DNA from: Natronosalvus rutilus
GTDB taxonomy: Archaea; Halobacteriota; Halobacteria; Halobacteriales; Natrialbaceae
Assembly: GCF_024204665.1 (NCBI RefSeq)
Contig: NZ_CP100355.1
Span: 1,345,451 to 1,409,450, forward strand
Length of the DNA: 64,000 nucleotides
Direction: 5' to 3'
Shown here: positions 9,572 through 46,018 of the stretch, piece after piece
How the letters are laid out: every line of letters begins with the position of its first letter
Position numbering within the stretch: the first letter of the stretch is position 1
Translations under genes and position numbers: made by a program
Notes under the pieces: model-generated
The model's database searches: none
What the model saw: the letters and a program-made list of their open reading frames with translations, nothing else
What the model was told of the DNA's origin: nothing

Positions 9572-9659
9572 TTCGGGTTGTTCTGGAACTCCCTGGCTGC
9601 AGCGGGGACGCAAAGTTGAGGTCCAGTCGAGGTCGAGCTCAAGGCCGAACAGGATTGTT

Positions 9660-10035
9660 GACATCCTCCGCACGACTGAAGTCGTGGGATTCCCCGTGCT
9701 CGGGGTCGGGTCGGTCTCGACGCCGACAGGGGCAACTTCCCGCCCTCGATGGGCGGTTTCGGTTTGCAGGTTATGCGTCAGGGGCGGTGGGCGCGTGGTG
9801 ACGCCAGTCCGCGTGGACTACCCTGCTGACACCCTACGGGCCGTGCCATCGGCCCGACTCGGACTCGCGCCCGAGCCTCACTTGGGCAGGGTTGCTTTTT
9901 GATGGTGGAGACCCCAATCCAACTCCAGGTTTCCCGAGCGAGTTATATTGATATCCGACCCCGGCCACCCTGAGTATTGCGTTTTGATCAAAACTGGTCG
10001 GATTCATCCCACGACTGAAGTCGTGGGCTTTCTTC
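9660..10035 (-). mobile_element. tnpB-less IS200/IS605 derivative (MITE-like) keeping an omegaRNA-like region
   Basis: Both ends carry the same hairpin: CACGACT-GA-AGTCGTG at 9671-9686, next to TTGACATCCTCC, and CCCACGACT-GA-AGTCGTGGG at 10008-10027, next to GGATTCATCC. These flanking words match the right end (11868) and left end (13341) of the complete element at 11.9-13.4 kb. No tnpA or tnpB coding remains. The interior keeps the right-end part of a tnpB element, including two blocks identical to the element at 22 kb. Boundaries are estimated from the hairpins. Confidence 0.75.
9690..9860 (-). ncRNA. Candidate omegaRNA (sotRNA) scaffold in the tnpB-less element
   Basis: GCGCGTGGTGACGCC (9791-9805) and ACGGGCCGTGCCATCGGCC (9836-9854) are identical to sequence at the 3' end of tnpB at 22 kb. 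A nested fold is possible: outer GTCA+GGG (9777-9783) with CCC+TGAC (9821-9830), and inner AGTCC (9806-9810) with GGACT (9815-9819). TnpB guide RNAs and the sense-overlapping transcripts of haloarchaeal IS1341-type genes come from this part of the element. Expression without tnpB is only inferred. Confidence 0.5.
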
Positions 10036-10047
10036 TCGAATCTGTGT

Positions 10048-10347
10048 AATCTACGATCCACGAGACTGGCTTGCTCCGTACTCGAGACGAGTCAGTCTTC
10101 CAACCGGCTGGAAGGGTCTGACCCAACACCACTGCCTAACTCCGTCCAGTACAGCGAATATGCCTCGAGGTGTCATCCAGCAAACCAGGTCGGTTTTGCT
10201 ATTCTAGCCATTGAGTACGCTTCGCATACCTTCAAAGCAAGCTAGTCTGTCTTTCACCATACAGTGTGTATATATTCTTGTATTTCATGAATCAATTAAC
10301 GAACAACGGCTTGATTTCCGGTCGCGAGTCTCGAGGAGCGATCACCC
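10048..10347. other. Intergenic region before the PadR-like gene
   Basis: About 300 bp without a gene. The AT-rich last 90 bases probably contain the promoter of the gene at 10348. An inverted repeat ATACA-GTG-TGTAT sits at 10259-10271 and could be an operator. Nothing else stands out. Confidence 0.4.
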
Positions 10348-11869: not shown

Positions 11870-12010
11870 ATCCTCCCGCGCCTGAAGACGCGGGAATCCC
11901 GAGCGTTGGGATATTAGGGTTTGCAGTCTACCACTTGTTCCCTCGGTGAGAATCCGTGGGACAAGTCGTGAAGGTAGACTCCGGGCTGTGCCAACCAGCC
12001 GGTACTCCTA
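11870..12010 (-). ncRNA. Candidate omegaRNA (sotRNA) of the 11.9-kb TnpB
   Basis: At the tnpB 3' end the sequence can fold into nested stems: AGTCTACC (11925-11932) with GGTAGACT (11973-11980), then ACTTGT (11933-11938) with ACAAGT (11961-11966), and a small CGG/CCG hairpin inside. The pairings differ in sequence from those at 22 kb and 9.8 kb but keep the same order. Haloarchaeal IS1341-type genes are known to produce such sense-overlapping RNAs, and TnpB uses the equivalent RNA as its guide scaffold. Confidence 0.55.
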
Positions 12011-13230
12011 TCCCCACCTAAAGTGGCTGCAGACTCGGAGTTACTTTGGTTCAAGTCGAGACGGATGTTCTCCGCCCCATTTACGTCAGCGTTGAATGCC
12101 GCATCACACGACTCACAGACGTACAAGCCGCGTTCAACACGCTGACTCTCATCTTCTGTACCGCACACGCAACACGTCTTACTTGTGTTCCGTTCTGAAA
12201 CTTCTACAACTTCGATACCCTCGACTTTCGCTTTGTACGTGAGAATCTTCGTGAAGCGGTCGAACGCCCACCCGTGTAAGTCAAGGTTGCCGTGCCGACC
12301 CCAGTTCTTCGAGTCGCCGTTTTCATCCTCTCGAACACCAGCGAGTTTTCCGATGTTGATTCTCCCCACGCCACGCTCGATACACTTCTCAACGACGTGT
12401 TTCGCTAAAGAGTGGAAGAAGTGAGCGCGGCGCTCGCTCCATTTGTGATGAAGTCTGGTGGCCTCAGAGCCACCTGAGTCGTCGTACTTGGCTATTTCCT
12501 TCGGGAAGTAGTATCCGTCTTGTTTCAAGCGGTTTCCGGGGTACAAGTCGGCTTGCTCAATACTGTAGGCGACCGCCGCGAAGTTGCAGATACCGAGGTC
12601 GATGCCAGCAGTCTCGTTGCCGGGAGCATCGGGTGTTTCGACTTCGTGTTTACACACGAGGTGAAGTTCCCATCGCCCCTTCAATTTGCTGTAGACGGCT
12701 CGAACCTGTTGTAGGTTCTCAACCGTAACCCCAGGACGAGTCTCATACTCGACGAGAATGTAGTCCCAGTCTCTCGGGTGGTCTTTGTGATTCGCACCTT
12801 TCGAGAGCCTGACGCGGTTGTGCTTGGTGTCGTGACGGATGCCCTTTTGCTTCCACGTCACCGTGCTACGAGGGTGTTCTTCGTGGACGCGGTTGCCGTC
12901 ATTGTCGTAGTAGTTTTTCTTGCGGTAGCCGGGCGGATTCGCACGAGAATCGTTCTTGCGTTTTCCGAACCACGAGTTGAAGGCTTCAGCGAGTTCTTCC
13001 AGAACGCGCTGGCTGGACTGACTGTGCAGTCCCTTGTAGTTGTCGTGACCTTTCAGCTCGTTTTTCAAGTCCGAGTCGTCGGGGATCTCGCCCGTGTCAT
13101 CCCACACTTGGCGGGAGTGATAGTTCGCAACGTTCCATAGTTTCGATGTACTCCACGCGTGCAGGTCGAGCATCTGCTCCACTTGTGAGTGGTTGCGGAT
13201 TTTCGCCCGGCAAGTGCGGTGGATGTGCAT
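11914..13230 (-). CDS. tnpB: TnpB family RNA-guided nuclease, relocated-glutamate type
   Basis: A full-length 438-residue TnpB. The N-terminal helical region holds the family's LHSQSSQRVLEELAEAFNSWF. RuvC motifs follow: GIDLGICNFAAVAYS (first Asp), then RINIGKLAGVRED where most TnpB proteins have (I/V)xEDL, the zinc ribbon CCVCGTEDES...CESC, and the final NADVNGAENIR Asp. The usual catalytic Glu is replaced by Gly (IGKL). VSERNTSKTC, about 50 residues later, offers a glutamate in the position used by Fanzor and some TnpB lineages. The 3' end overlaps the candidate guide RNA. No tnpA is adjacent. Confidence 0.93.
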   Translation of the reverse strand: MHIHRTCRAKIRNHSQVEQMLDLHAWSTSKLWNVANYHSRQVWDDTGEIPDDSDLKNELKGHDNYKGLHSQSSQRVLEELAEAFNSWFGKRKNDSRANPPGYRKKNYYDNDGNRVHEEHPRSTVTWKQKGIRHDTKHNRVRLSKGANHKDHPRDWDYILVEYETRPGVTVENLQQVRAVYSKLKGRWELHLVCKHEVETPDAPGNETAGIDLGICNFAAVAYSIEQADLYPGNRLKQDGYYFPKEIAKYDDSGGSEATRLHHKWSERRAHFFHSLAKHVVEKCIERGVGRINIGKLAGVREDENGDSKNWGRHGNLDLHGWAFDRFTKILTYKAKVEGIEVVEVSERNTSKTCCVCGTEDESQRVERGLYVCESCDAAFNADVNGAENIRLDLNQSNSESAATLGGDRSTGWLAQPGVYLHDLSHGFSPREQVVDCKP

Positions 13231-15559: not shown

Positions 15560-16979
15560 CGTCCCCACCCCAGATCGCCGCTGGAATCGCCTCGAGCAGG
15601 TCTGACGCGACCAGGCCGAGGTCGTGGCGACGTGCGATGCGCTCGCCAGCGTGTCCGTTGACGTACGCGGCGGCCGTCGCGGCCTCGAGGGGGTCGGCGT
15701 GTTCGAGTAAACCGGCGACGATTCCGGAGAGGAGGTCGCCAGTGCCGCCGACGGCCATCGCCGGCGTCCCCGCGCGGCTGACGCGGGTCGTCTCGCCGTC
15801 GGAGATCACGTCCGCTGCCCCCTTCGCGAGGACGACGTGGCCCAGGTCCGCCGCGAAGGTCTCAATCTCGTCCGTGACCGCCCGGAGGTCCTCGGCCTCG
15901 GGCCCGCCCATCCCCGCGAGTTCGCGTCGGTTGGGCGTACAGACCAACGTCGCCTCGGTCTCGAGGCCGGGGACGACCTCAAGGGCGTCCGCGTCGACGA
16001 CGGCCGGGCCAGTGTAGGACTCGAGAAATTGTCGGGCGGCCTCGATGGTCTCCTCGGCGGTGCCCAGACCGGGCCCCAGGACGACCACGTCGTCGTGGCG
16101 CTCGGCCGTCTCGACGAGTCCTTCGACCTGGTCGGGCGTCAGCACCTCGCCCTCGTAGGGCTGGACGATCAGGTCCTCGGCGTACCCTTGGATCTCTCCG
16201 GCGACCGTATCGGGCGCGGCGACAAACGCGAGTTCCATGCCCGTCCGGAGCGCGGCCTGGGCGGCGAGCGCCGGTGCGCCGGTGTAGGGGCCACCACCGA
16301 TGACGAACGCCCGGCCCGTTCGTTCGGCGGGTCGAGCGAGGTCGACGTCGCCGGGCCCGGCGAATCGCTCTGCGGCCGCCGGAATGCCGATGTCGGCGAC
16401 CTCGAGCGTCGACTCGAGGCCCTCGAGCCCCGGCTTGGCGTCGTGGAAGGTGACGACGTGGTCGGCCGCGACGCCGTTGTCGGCGTGCTCGCCCGCGTCG
16501 GCGTCGAACCCGGAGGGGACGTCGACGCTCACCACCGTCGCGTCGGCCGCGTTGATCGCCCGGGCGGCCGAGGCCGCGGGTTCGCGGAGGTCGCCGCTGA
16601 TCCCGGTACCGAGCATCGCGTCGACGATGACGTCACAATCGGGGAGGGAAAGCGAGCGGGAGTCGGTGACCGCCTCGACGTCGTACTCGCCTCGCTCGAG
16701 CGCCTCCCAGTTCGCCCGCGCGATGTCGGTCCCGATGGCCTCCGGTCGACCAAGCAACAGCGTCGTCACGTCGTAGTCCTCGAGGAAGCGGACGGCCACG
16801 AGGGCGTCCCCGCCGTTGTTTCCGCGGCCGGCGACCACGACGACCCGTGCGCCGGGGTCGGCGACGCGCTCGACGGCTCGAGCGACGGCGTTTCCACTGG
16901 ATTCCATGAGCTGTCGGCGTGGGACGCCCAGCGCGGCGGCGTTCTCGTCGACGGCGACCATCCGTTCGCCAGTGATCAT
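15552..16979 (-). CDS. nnr: Bifunctional NAD(P)H-hydrate epimerase / ADP-dependent dehydratase
   Basis: A 475-residue two-domain repair enzyme for hydrated NAD(P)H. The N-terminal epimerase domain (about 1-215) shows VVVAGRGNNGGDALVAVR and VDAMLGTGISGDLR. The C-terminal ribokinase-like dehydratase domain (about 225-475) has GPGLGTAEET, VDADAL and the nucleotide-binding GGTGDLLSGIVAGLL. The length matches two-domain homologues. It overlaps moaC downstream, so the two are one operon despite unrelated chemistry. Start ATG at 16979. Confidence 0.94.
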   Translation of the reverse strand: MITGERMVAVDENAAALGVPRRQLMESSGNAVARAVERVADPGARVVVVAGRGNNGGDALVAVRFLEDYDVTTLLLGRPEAIGTDIARANWEALERGEYDVEAVTDSRSLSLPDCDVIVDAMLGTGISGDLREPAASAARAINAADATVVSVDVPSGFDADAGEHADNGVAADHVVTFHDAKPGLEGLESTLEVADIGIPAAAERFAGPGDVDLARPAERTGRAFVIGGGPYTGAPALAAQAALRTGMELAFVAAPDTVAGEIQGYAEDLIVQPYEGEVLTPDQVEGLVETAERHDDVVVLGPGLGTAEETIEAARQFLESYTGPAVVDADALEVVPGLETEATLVCTPNRRELAGMGGPEAEDLRAVTDEIETFAADLGHVVLAKGAADVISDGETTRVSRAGTPAMAVGGTGDLLSGIVAGLLEHADPLEAATAAAYVNGHAGERIARRHDLGLVASDLLEAIPAAIWGGDDE

Positions 16980-22033: not shown

Positions 22034-22215
22034 TTGACATCCTCCCCGCGCTAAAGCGCAAGAATTCCACCGTGGGTGTTCGGCTACGCCGATTCCCCGG
22101 CGGTAACTTGCGGGTGTGTATGCTCCTCGTTGGGACGGTGAGCGCGTGGTGACGCCGACCATCGGTGGTCGTCCCACTTGAGGCATACGGGCCGTGCCAT
22201 CGGCCATGGTACGTT
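22034..22215 (-). ncRNA. Candidate omegaRNA (sotRNA) of the 22-kb IS
   Basis: The tnpB 3' end and right end fold into nested stems: GTATGC (22118-22123) with GCATAC (22183-22188), TGGGAC (22131-22136) with GTCCCA (22171-22176), and GACCA (22157-22161) with TGGTC (22166-22170). The conserved GCGCGTGGTGACGCC (22142-22156) lies within the fold and ACGGGCCGTGCCATCGGCC (22187-22205) at its side. Both blocks recur in the relic at 9.8 kb. The RNA would be read in the tnpB direction with its guide continuing past 22034. Confidence 0.6.
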
Positions 22216-23373
22216 TCCTTCGTGCCGTCGGAGGAACGTCTCCGACGCCGTGAGGTCCGCGTGGCCCTCGAAGCCACACGGACAGGTGAGCGTGTCTTTG
22301 TGTCGAGTTGTGTCCTCCGTTGAGCCGCACTGGGGACACGTCTGCGAGGTCCACGCTTCGGGGCGGACTTCGACGACGATGCCGTACTCCTCGGCGGTAC
22401 ACGCCAGCCGGTCGATAAACGCGCGGAACGCCCAGAAGTTGTGCGTCTTCTGGTTCGCCCGCACCGACCAGTGCGTTTCCAGTACGTCGGTGAGGTCGCC
22501 GACGTACACGGTGGAAACACCTTCCCCGTGCAATCGATCGAAGAGGTCGCGGGCAAGTGCGTCCATGGCGTGGTCGCGTCGTCGCGTCCGTCGGCGGTAC
22601 AGCCGTCGAATCCGCTTCGACGTGTACCGGCCCTCTTCGCGCTTCACCTTCGATTGGTGGTCCGCGATTCGGCGGGTCGTCTCGCGGAACCGCTTGAATA
22701 GGTTGCGCCCCTCGTAGAGATACTGCTGGCCGGTCGTGGTTGTACAGGCGACGATGTTGTTTGCGCCAATATCCAGAGCAGCCGTCTCGTCGGCTAATGG
22801 TGAGTCCTGTCGAGAAACATCCGTGGTGACAGGTTGAATGGCCCTGAATTGGCCGCTTAACTCGTCGTAGTACAGTTCCAACCGGCCTTGGTCGTCCGAC
22901 CACTTCGGCTTCCCACGAACGCCGAGTGTGAGGCGTTCGCGGTAGCCCATGTCGTACTCATCCTTGAGGTCGCTGCCGACCGGGATTTCGATGGTCGAAC
23001 GGTCGCCCCACCGGAGCGTGTACTGGTCGTTGCGAATATACGTCCGCAACTCCCGCCCTTCTTCCTCGTTGCCCCAGTACCCCGGCAGGCCGTTGGCTTC
23101 CCCCTTCTCTTTCAGGGCAAAGAACGACCGCCACGCTTCGGTGTTCTTGCGAATCACCTGTTGGGCGGTGGCACTTCCGAGGACACCGACGTACTGTTTG
23201 CGGTAGTCCTCGGTATCCCACACCGACTTGTCGATGTCGGGGCCGGTGAAGTTCTGCCGGCGCTGGTAGGTGATTTGGTTCCACAGCGAGGCAGAGGCGT
23301 CCAACAGCCTGTGAAGCAGTTCTTCGTCGGCGTCGGAGCGCGGGACGACGGTAAAGGAGTTAACGCGCCTCAT
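22084..23373 (-). CDS. tnpB: TnpB family RNA-guided nuclease, relocated-glutamate type
   Basis: A roughly 430-residue TnpB. RuvC motifs are [15 protein letters not shown] (first Asp), [11 protein letters not shown] in place of xEDL, the zinc ribbon [22 protein letters not shown], and [14 protein letters not shown] with the last Asp. As in the 11.9-kb copy, the canonical Glu is Gly (VGDL). A candidate substitute is the Glu in [11 protein letters not shown]. The start is placed at the ATG at 23373, where ATGA overlaps the tnpA stop; a GTG at 23382 is also in frame. The C-terminal tail lies within the candidate guide RNA. Confidence 0.92.
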
Positions 23374-23765
23374 GCAGTCCACCTCCCGTCTTGCTTGTCC
23401 TTCTGCTCGCGGATGTACTGCTTAACGGCGTCTTTCGAGACGCTGCCGGCAGTCCCGACATAGTACGAGCGCGTCCACTTGATACGGTCGTTGGACCGCT
23501 CATTGTACCACCGGGCGGAAATTCCCTTCACCCAGTTGACGATGAGTGACGGGGCGTTCTTCGGCGGACTGCCGATGAAGAGGTGGACGTGGTCAGGCAT
23601 GATTTCGGCTTCGACCAGTTCGAGGTCTTTGTCGTCGCAGATTTCCTCGAAGATGGAGTGAAGCCGGTCGGCGGCGGCACCCGTGAGACGCTGCTCCCGG
23701 TACTTCGGGATGAATACTACGTGGTAGTAGAGGTCATAGACTGCGTGACGGGTGCTCTTCACCAT
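23370..23765 (-). CDS. tnpA: IS200/IS605 Y1 transposase TnpA
   Basis: A 131-residue HUH single-strand transposase. The histidine pair is in [14 protein letters not shown] (about 62-76) and the nucleophilic tyrosine near the C-terminus in [13 protein letters not shown]. It cuts and joins single-stranded element ends at the subterminal hairpins. Length and motifs are normal, so it looks active. Its stop overlaps the tnpB ATG (ATGA). Confidence 0.95.
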
Positions 23766-44187: not shown

Positions 44188-44610
44188 CTAGTGTTCCGTC
44201 TCCTCGATGTACCGACGAACCACGTCCTCGGAAACAACACCAGTCGTCCCAACGTAGTATCCATCCTTCCACAACCCACTTCCCCAGAAATACCGCTGTT
44301 TGATTTCTGGATGGCGTTTCAGAATCGTTCGGCCCGAGTAGCCCTTGAATTGCTTGGCGATCTCGGCAGGACTCCATTTCGGGTCAGCCTCCACGAACAA
44401 GTGAACGTGGTCAGTAGCAATCTCCATCGACACAATCTCGTGACCGAACCGTTCAGCAGTTCCTTGAAACAACTCCGCAAGTTCGCCTCGAACTAACTCC
44501 AACATCCCATGTCGATACTTCGGATACCACACGAAATGATATTTACACGAACTAATCGAATGTGCATGACTCCTGTAGTCTCCCCTCCTAATCCCTACTT
44601 TTATTATCAT
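44188..44610 (-). CDS. tnpA: IS200/IS605 Y1 transposase TnpA
   Basis: A 140-residue HUH transposase. The His pair is in ATDHVHLFVEADPKW (about 68-82), the catalytic Tyr in VSEDVVRRYIEETEH at the C-terminus, and HSISSCKYHFVWYPKYRH near the start is typical of IS200/IS605. It differs clearly from the copy at 23.4 kb, so the two insertions are from separate lineages. Start ATG at 44610, divergent from tnpB. Confidence 0.94.
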   Translation of the reverse strand: MIIKVGIRRGDYRSHAHSISSCKYHFVWYPKYRHGMLELVRGELAELFQGTAERFGHEIVSMEIATDHVHLFVEADPKWSPAEIAKQFKGYSGRTILKRHPEIKQRYFWGSGLWKDGYYVGTTGVVSEDVVRRYIEETEH

Positions 44611-44629
44611 TTGATTCGATAGTCAAGGT

Positions 44630-45944
44630 ATGGGTATCGAAGAAGTTACGAAGACCGCACGCACTCGGCTCTGCATAGAGTCTGGTGAGCGGTCGTGGCT
44701 CAAAGATGCCCGATTCACCGCACGAGACATCTCCAACGACACACTCCGACTCAAACAACAAGGCTACAACCGCACTGAGATTCAGAACGGAGTTGACCGC
44801 GATGACTTCCTTCGGAACAACAAGTGTGCGGTCGTCGGGAAAGCCCTGCAAGCGTGGGACTCCTACAAAGAACTCCTCAACTGGTGGTACGACCAAGACG
44901 ACACCAACGTCGGGAAACCGTCGCCACCAGCCACGGACAAGAAAGGAGCCTACCCGTTATGGCGCACACCGAAGGCTACCGACTCACCTACGACGACAAG
45001 GACGACCGCGTAGCGTTCCGTGTGAGTGCGAAGCCGTACAAGAAGGTGAAAGGACACCTTCGAGGGCGACCGGAAGACATCAACCTCATCGAGTCAGCCT
45101 TGACCGAAGATGAGTGGTCGTTGGGGCAGGCCGAACTTCTGTACCGAGATGGCGTGTACTACCTACACGTCACGGTCAAAACAGAAGTCGAAGTGCCTGA
45201 ACCTGAAGACGCTGACACACTCGTCGGCGTCGATATTAACGAGCGCAACATCTCTCTCACCGCTCTTAATCGTGAGATGATGGACACGCTCGGAACACTC
45301 GTGCTTGACTACGGCTCGGTGAAAGCCGAGCGCCAACGCTACCACACCATCACCAAACGCTGTCAAGAACACGGCCAACACTCTATCCACCACCAACTCG
45401 GGGAGAAAGAAGAACGCTACACTGAGTGTGGATTCTTCACCGTATGTCCCGAGTCGTGGTCGAGTTTGCCCAACAATTCTCGAACCCTGTTATTGTGTTC
45501 GAGGACTTGAGTGGGATTCGAGACGCCATCAAGTACGGCACGTACATGAACCGGCGTCTGCATAAACTCCCGTTCCATAAGTTCGAGAAACAGGTTCGAT
45601 ACAAGGCAACGTGGAATCAGGTTCCGTGTGAGACGGTTGAGTCGCCGTACAACTCGAAGTCGTGTTCGTGCTGTGGACACCGTGGCTACCGCCAAGGTCG
45701 GCGGTTCCGCTGCACTAACGATGAGTGTGCGGTTCAGCAAGACCACGCTGACCGAAACGCGAGTGTGAATGTGGCGTGGCGAGCGTGGGCGAAACACGCT
45801 GGCGTAGACGTTGAATCGGTTAATTACCGGACTCGCAAAACCCAACCGTTTGTTCGGAAGGTGAGCCTGTCTGGGTCGGGGCGCTCTGTAAACCGCCCAT
45901 CCTCATCCCGCAAAATCGCTTCGCGTGGAGTGCTGTCGGCGTAG
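44630..45944 (+). pseudogene. tnpB: tnpB with two frameshifts
   Basis: TnpB coding is spread over three frames. Frame one covers 44630 to about 44955 (MGIEEVTKTARTRL ... KPSPPATDKKGAYPLW). The second continues with MAHTEGYRLTYDDKDDRVAF to EKEERYT (about 45425), and the third with WILHRMSRVVVEFAQQFSNP to 45944. Joined together, it has GVDINERNISLTAL (Asp), VIVFEDLSGIRDA (Glu), CSCCGHRGYRQG...CTNDEC and HADRNASVNVA (Asp), all canonical. Two single-base indels have destroyed it, unless they are sequencing errors. Confidence 0.85.
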
Positions 45945-46018
45945 GCTGAGTGAATTAGAAAAGCCACGGGTCACCCGACCCGTGGTCGTTTACCTATCTG
46001 GGGAGTGTGTGACCAGCT

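Follow-up and report, generated by a model that had tools for sequence, protein, structure and literature searches.

Can a transposable element without tnpB still carry a guide-RNA scaffold for TnpB proteins made elsewhere in the cell? The question is raised by a short element near 10 kb of the window, by which we mean the whole 64,000 nt of Natronosalvus rutilus contig NZ_CP100355.1 analysed here, numbered from its first letter. Haloarchaeal genomes contain many tnpB genes, few tnpA genes and numerous gene-less PATEs without an established function, and TnpB is thought to aid the persistence of its own transposon.

A complete non-autonomous IS200/IS605-type element

The sequence-only reading had drawn the element from 9660 to 10035. 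By comparison with copies in the same genome, we moved its ends to 9658 and 10045, with TTAC at 10046-10049. On the minus strand the layout is TTAC, followed by ACAGATTCGAGAAG-AAAG-CCCACGACTTCAGTCGTGGG ... GAAT-CCCACGACTTCAGTCGTG-CGGAGGATG-TCAA, where the element stops. Its outer parts are:

9658..10045, minus strand: complete tnpB-less element, 388 bp (left end 10045, right end 9658; ends common to full-length and tnpB-less copies)
10046..10049, minus strand: TTAC target tetranucleotide, left of the left end; IS608-type CL and predicted TAM (IS608 rule, PMC5934647)
10008..10031, minus strand: left end, with guide tetranucleotide AAAG (10028-10031; IS608 GL is AAAG) and hairpin CCCACGACTTCAGTCGTGGG (10008-10027), read from the sequence
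9933..10007, minus strand: left-end spacer, the least conserved part (57% mean identity)
9668..9692, minus strand: right end, with GAAT (9689-9692; IS608 GR is GAAT) and hairpin CCCACGACTTCAGTCGTGCGG, read from the sequence
9658..9664, minus strand: ATGTCAA with right cleavage site TCAA; TGTCA (9659-9663) pairs with TGGCA and the last A adjoins the guide

IS608 is cleaved at TTAC on the left and TCAA on the right, with guide tetranucleotides AAAG and GAAT (PMC5934647), and the window element matches this end code fully (CL TTAC/GL AAAG, CR TCAA/GR GAAT). Over 54 nt, its left end shares 98% identity with that of an intact tnpA-tnpB element located at C1:2592975-2594686 of the same genome. The hairpin core noticed earlier at both ends was borne out, as the window has exactly two occurrences of CACGACTGAAGTCGTG, at 9671-9686 and at 10010-10025. 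The core alone is a weak clue, because this genome has many ends-only copies of ~50 bp that bear this hairpin. These single-hairpin copies, TTACACAGATTCGAGGAGAAAGCCCACGACTTCAGTCGTGGGTGGATGTCAA, lie at L067 (2075-2114), L074, L075, L076 and L079, and related ones at L077, L078 and L083 terminate in AGTCAC instead.

The element lacks a protein gene, as previously read: tblastn found no TnpB in it, the longest stop-free stretch (80 codons) is in a frame unrelated to TnpB, and the TnpB frame itself holds only remnants, such as MARPV...ASPRAHRP followed by a stop. At 388 bp it is too short for a transposase gene and, having neither tnpA nor tnpB of its own, it is not an autonomous IS200/IS605 element. 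In two related genomes, G112 and G113, the sequence continues straight across the site that the window copy occupies, with neither an insertion nor a target duplication. Near-terminal palindromes of the kind found in IS605-type elements, the absence of terminal inverted repeats, and mobility without target duplication (seen from this empty site and from unrelated flanks in all aligned copies) place the element among the PATEs. A classical MITE was ruled out, since terminal inverted repeats and target duplication are both absent. Positions 9658-10045 are a complete non-autonomous IS200/IS605-type element.

Gene-less copies form a mobile family

We searched 125 genomes of the family for tnpB-less copies and inspected the loci. 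Copies were present in G112 (one, 93% identical), G111 (three), G114 (two), G085, G088 and G120 (four), and a second, divergent copy lies in the source genome itself (C1:1111720-1112110). Alignment A1 comprises 14 tnpB-less copies of 372-392 nt, from the target tetranucleotide through TCAA, and draws on six genomes besides the source. The 13 copies other than that in the window measure 372-391 bp, share their ends with it, and lie in unrelated flanks. Therefore, the gene-less form itself is mobile. This answered the call for more copies with the same ends in related genomes. The five copies in G088 and G120 (L123-L127) have target TGAC where the window copy has TTAC, and left guide GAAG where it has AAAG; within this one sublineage, target and guide changed together.

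Exact-pattern matches extended to Natronoglomus, Halorubrum, Halobellus, Halegenticoccus, Haladaptatus, Haloquadratum, Natrinema, Halovivax and Natronocalculus; in these genera most were TTAC...GGATGTCAA elements with tnpB absent from the element. The copies are scattered insertions without conserved loci. When a Halorubrum copy was used as a query against a plasmid collection, 825 Klebsiella plasmids matched at 90-95% identity, probably over a short stretch. In a phage search, one match spanned 39 nt in an unannotated faecal phage, and a 36-nt right-end match in one halovirus proved to be an ends-only copy. The latter lies at ~16046-16097 of the tailed halovirus OP630575.1 (L254 1485-1536), and such a virus is a possible vehicle between hosts.

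The interior retains an omegaRNA-like scaffold

The interior aligned with the 3′ end of the tnpB gene at 22 kb of the window (76% identity over 75 nt; E 1e-7 in 64 kb). Two interior blocks had been described as identical to that region, at 15 and 19 nt; the 15-nt block GCGCGTGGTGACGCC was upheld, whereas the second, TACGGGCCGTGCCATCGGCC, is 20 nt long. The relevant features are:

9658..9852, minus strand: omegaRNA-like 3′ scaffold, homologous to the tnpB 3′ end and the right end of TnpB elements (R2 and covariation)
9838..9855, minus strand: stem GGGCC[GATGGCAC]GGCCC, whose loop is the 5′ strand of the guide-proximal pseudoknot (TGGCA, 9844-9848)
9857..9876, minus strand: variable apical hairpin GCTCGGGCGCGAGTCCGAGT, with compensatory changes
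22034..22203, minus strand: omegaRNA region of the tnpA-tnpB element at 22 kb, the scaffold's closest autonomous relative in the same genome (R2 98.5 bits, E 4.5e-23)

Covariance model R2 was built for the 3′ domain (alignment A5) from tnpB-less copies only. It nevertheless recognised the 3′ ends of tnpB elements at 61-141 bits, with scores of 141 for L133, 134 for L101, 106 for L182 and 94 for L073. Within the same genome, six full-length copies (L067-L072) and a right end in L081 scored 61-74 bits, and L066 only 18-23 bits. Since a model made from tnpB-less copies picks out tnpB-element 3′ ends, the scaffold is a homologue of TnpB omegaRNA at the combined level of sequence and structure, and this homology takes in the tnpB 3′ end and right end of the 22-kb element. 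The right-end hairpin of the 22-kb element differs from that of the window element. No intact tnpB lies in the element or the adjoining DNA, so the usual overlap with tnpB in cis is missing, and we therefore term the scaffold omegaRNA-like and trans.

The structure also covaries. In a MAFFT alignment of seven sequences, built without any fitting to the structure, 97.4% of cells were paired and 10 pairs changed on both sides. The covariation score was 0.205 compared with 0.037-0.075 for slid structures, which are the fairer control; none of 500 shuffles reached 0.205, a control that is inflated by relatedness. The folding energy of the window RNA lies 2.7 s.d. below shuffles. Mean identity is 57% in the left spacer, 78-87% in the RNA regions and 97% at the right-end terminus, a profile that is as expected if RNA were the cargo. 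Rfam returned nothing meaningful for the element at gathering and E-value thresholds. An Acido-Lenti-1 match in the element fell below the cutoff and was dismissed as a chance hairpin, and HgcC matches in L073 and L128 were also below the cutoff.

A conserved guide-proximal pseudoknot and the predicted guide

In the loop of the GATGGCAC stem lies TGGCA, whose pairing partner TGTCA occupies positions -6 to -2 relative to the guide; the A at -1 stays unpaired. In ISDra2, the loop of stem 1 is likewise joined to positions -6 to -2, and the -1 A lies between pseudoknot and guide (PMC10097598); the pairing of a hairpin loop with the guide-proximal terminus thus has the ISDra2 geometry, which is also that of Halobacterium salinarum omegaRNAs (PMC12558985). 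The motif pair GATGGCAC/ATGTCAA is present in 42 of 43 distinct family members, and the remaining member keeps the pairing with GATGACAC/ATGTCAA. The pseudoknot also accounts for the block being shared with tnpB, where these bases code for the C-terminal PMARPV. Together, the R2 homology, the covarying stems and this pseudoknot agree with the original proposal that the element keeps an omegaRNA-like scaffold. The proposal had also placed the guide in host sequence beyond the right end, which fits the anatomy of TnpB and its omegaRNAs and gives:

9638..9657, minus strand: predicted guide, host DNA CAATCCTGTTCGGCCTTGAG, downstream of kae1-bud32

The RNA has a conserved 5′ domain of its own

Upstream of the GATGGCAC stem lies a further conserved domain, with closing pairs that covary:

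9884..9937, minus strand: conserved 5′ RNA domain (GAAA..TGGAGTTGGATTGGGGTCTCCA..CAAAAAGCAACCCTGC), missing from tnpB elements (alignments A1-A3)

Covariance model R1 (5′ domain, alignment A3) covers 9823-9937 in the window copy at 130.3 bits. Matches of R1 to tnpB elements are confined to the GATGGCAC stem, and the 5′ block is missing there. Thus, going by these alignments, the element is more than a tnpB leftover, and TnpB loading alone does not account for the 5′ domain. At E<=1e-6, R1 detected 67 copies, spread over 44 of the 391 Halobacteria genomes and 26 of 86 genera. Among loci whose surroundings were inspected, none of the strong R1 matches adjoined an intact tnpB, and L176 and L181 had short tnpB-like fragments nearby. 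In L181 (1501-1723), a weak 5′ domain is followed by a stretch encoding the last 38 TnpB residues, 63% identical to the 22-kb TnpB, and this locus looks like an intermediate form.

In many copies, an AT-rich, TATA-like block also lies upstream at a constant spacing. It lies in the left spacer, ~43-51 nt upstream of the TGGAG motif, at ~9963-9971 in the window, where it is weak; TTTTAT-like sequence occurs in many subfamily-B copies and is weaker in subfamily A, to which the window copy belongs. This block may be the element's own promoter, and a fixed-position TATA box is only suggested.

Candidate TnpB and TnpA partners in carrier genomes

The 22-kb element encodes a candidate TnpB partner and a TnpA:

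22084..23382, minus strand: TnpB, candidate trans partner, with the RuvC-II Glu replaced by Gly
23370..23765, minus strand: TnpA (Y1 transposase)

The same genome has 38 TnpB-domain and four TnpA-domain matches. When 30 carrier genomes were tested, all 30 had TnpB and 26 had TnpA. For TnpB, this co-occurrence is required by the proposed reading but weak as evidence, given how widespread TnpB is among haloarchaea. G017, G079, G104 and G159 each have a strong R1 copy and 8-16 TnpBs, and TnpA was not detected in them. In G088, which carries a copy, there was no other R2-type omegaRNA at E<=0.01.

The TnpBs with the closest omegaRNA (22-kb element, L073, L101, L133 and L182) have Gly at the RuvC-II Glu position of Cas12f-like relatives and keep the RuvC-I and RuvC-III Asp. 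Motifs at this position in the subfamily, which includes the proteins at 22084-23382 and 11914-13230 of the window, are YVGDL, YIGGL and NIGKL; the TnpB of L035 keeps the Glu. The Gly-bearing proteins may be nuclease-dead and binding-only, or may have a relocated catalytic residue. Therefore, binding without cleavage would be possible and cleavage is doubtful. The window also contains a second IS605-type element with a divergent tnpA, in which Rfam sot2652, a haloarchaeal omegaRNA, matches at 45823-46011, the 3′ end of a tnpB (44190-46010) that looks frameshifted.

A proposed mechanism and its alternatives

We favour, with somewhat better than even confidence, the reading that this PATE of the IS200/IS605 superfamily carries nothing but an omegaRNA acting in trans, with TnpA and TnpB supplied from elsewhere. 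As the scaffold is strongly conserved and the gene-less element recurs across haloarchaea, the TnpB that it uses is probably encoded at other loci of the cell. TnpA of other elements would mobilise it by way of its left-end and right-end DNA hairpins. An RNA of ~280 nt would be transcribed off the minus strand, possibly driven by a promoter that the element itself carries, and its 3′ part is predicted by homology and covariation to fold as a TnpB omegaRNA with the guide-proximal pseudoknot. TnpB encoded elsewhere would bind this RNA, with the host sequence adjoining the right end as guide, and the loaded protein would recognise TTAC plus the guide sequence, which is exactly the restored empty site. 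Judging from published TnpB biology, cleaving or occupying that site would favour retention of the element. Weighing against this reading are the G088 copy, whose genome has no other R2-type omegaRNA, the RuvC-II Gly of the nearest TnpBs, the differing right-end hairpin of the 22-kb element and a 5′ domain that loading by itself leaves unaccounted for. More tentatively, and with slightly less than even confidence, we extend this to a class-wide lineage of guide-RNA transposons, each with a self-promoted trans omegaRNA and its own 5′ domain, that would parasitise resident and possibly nuclease-dead TnpBs for retention.

Other functions of the RNA were weighed against this mechanism. It might serve a purpose unrelated to TnpB, for example as a host or virus regulatory RNA, with its omegaRNA features kept by descent only. 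The strongly conserved 5′ domain, which has no counterpart in tnpB elements, would suit such a role, as would a highly transcribed haloviral PATE whose authors guess at an ncRNA role (PMC10544981). We consider this unlikely, since the most invariant part is the most TnpB-specific one, the pseudoknot with the guide-proximal terminus, and since the copies are scattered insertions and not conserved loci. A slightly smaller chance is given to a decoy, in which the conserved RNA would bind TnpB and titrate or compete it away from the guides of autonomous copies, its own guide being irrelevant. Scaffold homology and the pseudoknot are equally expected of a decoy, and the extra 5′ domain absent from tnpB elements and the possibly nuclease-dead state of the nearest TnpBs would fit it. 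However, the right-end terminus and unpaired -1 A are perfectly kept, as guide use requires, and we know of no decoy RNA of this TnpB-titrating type.

Readings without any RNA function fare less well. The internal helices might be kept as single-stranded DNA structures for transposition, given that IS608 TnpA recognises DNA hairpins at both ends (PMC5934647). The described recognition involves only the subterminal hairpins with the guide and cleavage tetranucleotides, the 50-bp ends-only copies seem to spread without an interior, and the interior has its homologue in the 3′ RNA region of tnpB elements; a purely DNA-structural explanation was therefore rejected as very unlikely. Least probable of all, to the point of being barely credible, is a plain decayed IS605 remnant, in which an internal deletion spared both ends and the tnpB 3′ end, with no RNA function. 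Such remnants are documented in HqIRS71 (PMC3119063) and the Halanaerobium PATE (PMC7290912), and ends-only copies abound in this genome. Against this stand the recurrent, near-constant length, the covariation, an RNA that is better conserved than the spacer, and occurrence in 26 genera. We likewise rejected a one-off deletion without conserved structure, which the sequence-only reading had named as fatal to its proposal: the tnpB-less copies make up a family, their RNA structure is conserved and covaries, and they are homologous to the omegaRNA of tnpB elements.

If the trans-acting omegaRNA mechanism is true, a PATE family is selected for its TnpB guide scaffold, which would explain why PATEs persist; TnpB would be a shared resource exploited by non-autonomous elements; and the family would offer a natural, testable system for TnpB loading in trans. 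From the extra 5′ domain one may learn how a guide RNA arises without a tnpB messenger.

Comparison with known systems

The PATEs of Haloquadratum walsbyi are transposase-less elements with near-terminal palindromes and no target duplication, and form homogeneous multi-copy families with ends-only 52-bp forms; among related sequences, HqIRS71 is a remnant with a tnpB 3′ end (Dyall-Smith et al. 2011, PMC3119063). The window element fits that definition, including its ~50-bp ends-only derivatives. The H. walsbyi elements are defined by their DNA ends, and the available part of that account describes no scaffold, pseudoknot or covariation, whereas the interior of the window element is a conserved omegaRNA-homologous RNA. 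The Halanaerobium PATE holds the last 58 nt of tnpB (PMC7290912). The PATE of halovirus HRTV-DL1 (489 bp) yields an abundant ~300-nt transcript (PMC10544981) and is likewise haloarchaeal. R2 had no significant match in the whole halovirus record OP630575.1, so this transcribed PATE is not tied to the family of the window element.

With the TnpB omegaRNAs and sotRNAs (ISDra2, PMC10097598; H. salinarum, PMC12558985; Rfam sot2652) the window element shares the pseudoknot between loop and guide-proximal terminus. It also has in common with them a right-end hairpin and a guide outside the element. In contrast to known TnpB omegaRNAs, which overlap tnpB in cis, it has no tnpB, carries an extra 5′ domain and goes unrecognised by Rfam. 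Guide scaffolds separate from an effector gene exist as orphan omegaRNAs of IscB and in tnpB-less IStrons; these resemble the window element in having a scaffold without an effector gene, and differ in serving another effector or belonging to intron-bearing elements. Our literature search, outside which most subscription journals lay, found nothing on non-autonomous TnpB guide-RNA elements or on PATEs carrying a conserved TnpB scaffold. PATEs and remnants with tnpB 3′ ends were already known; what appears new here is a PATE family with a conserved TnpB guide scaffold.
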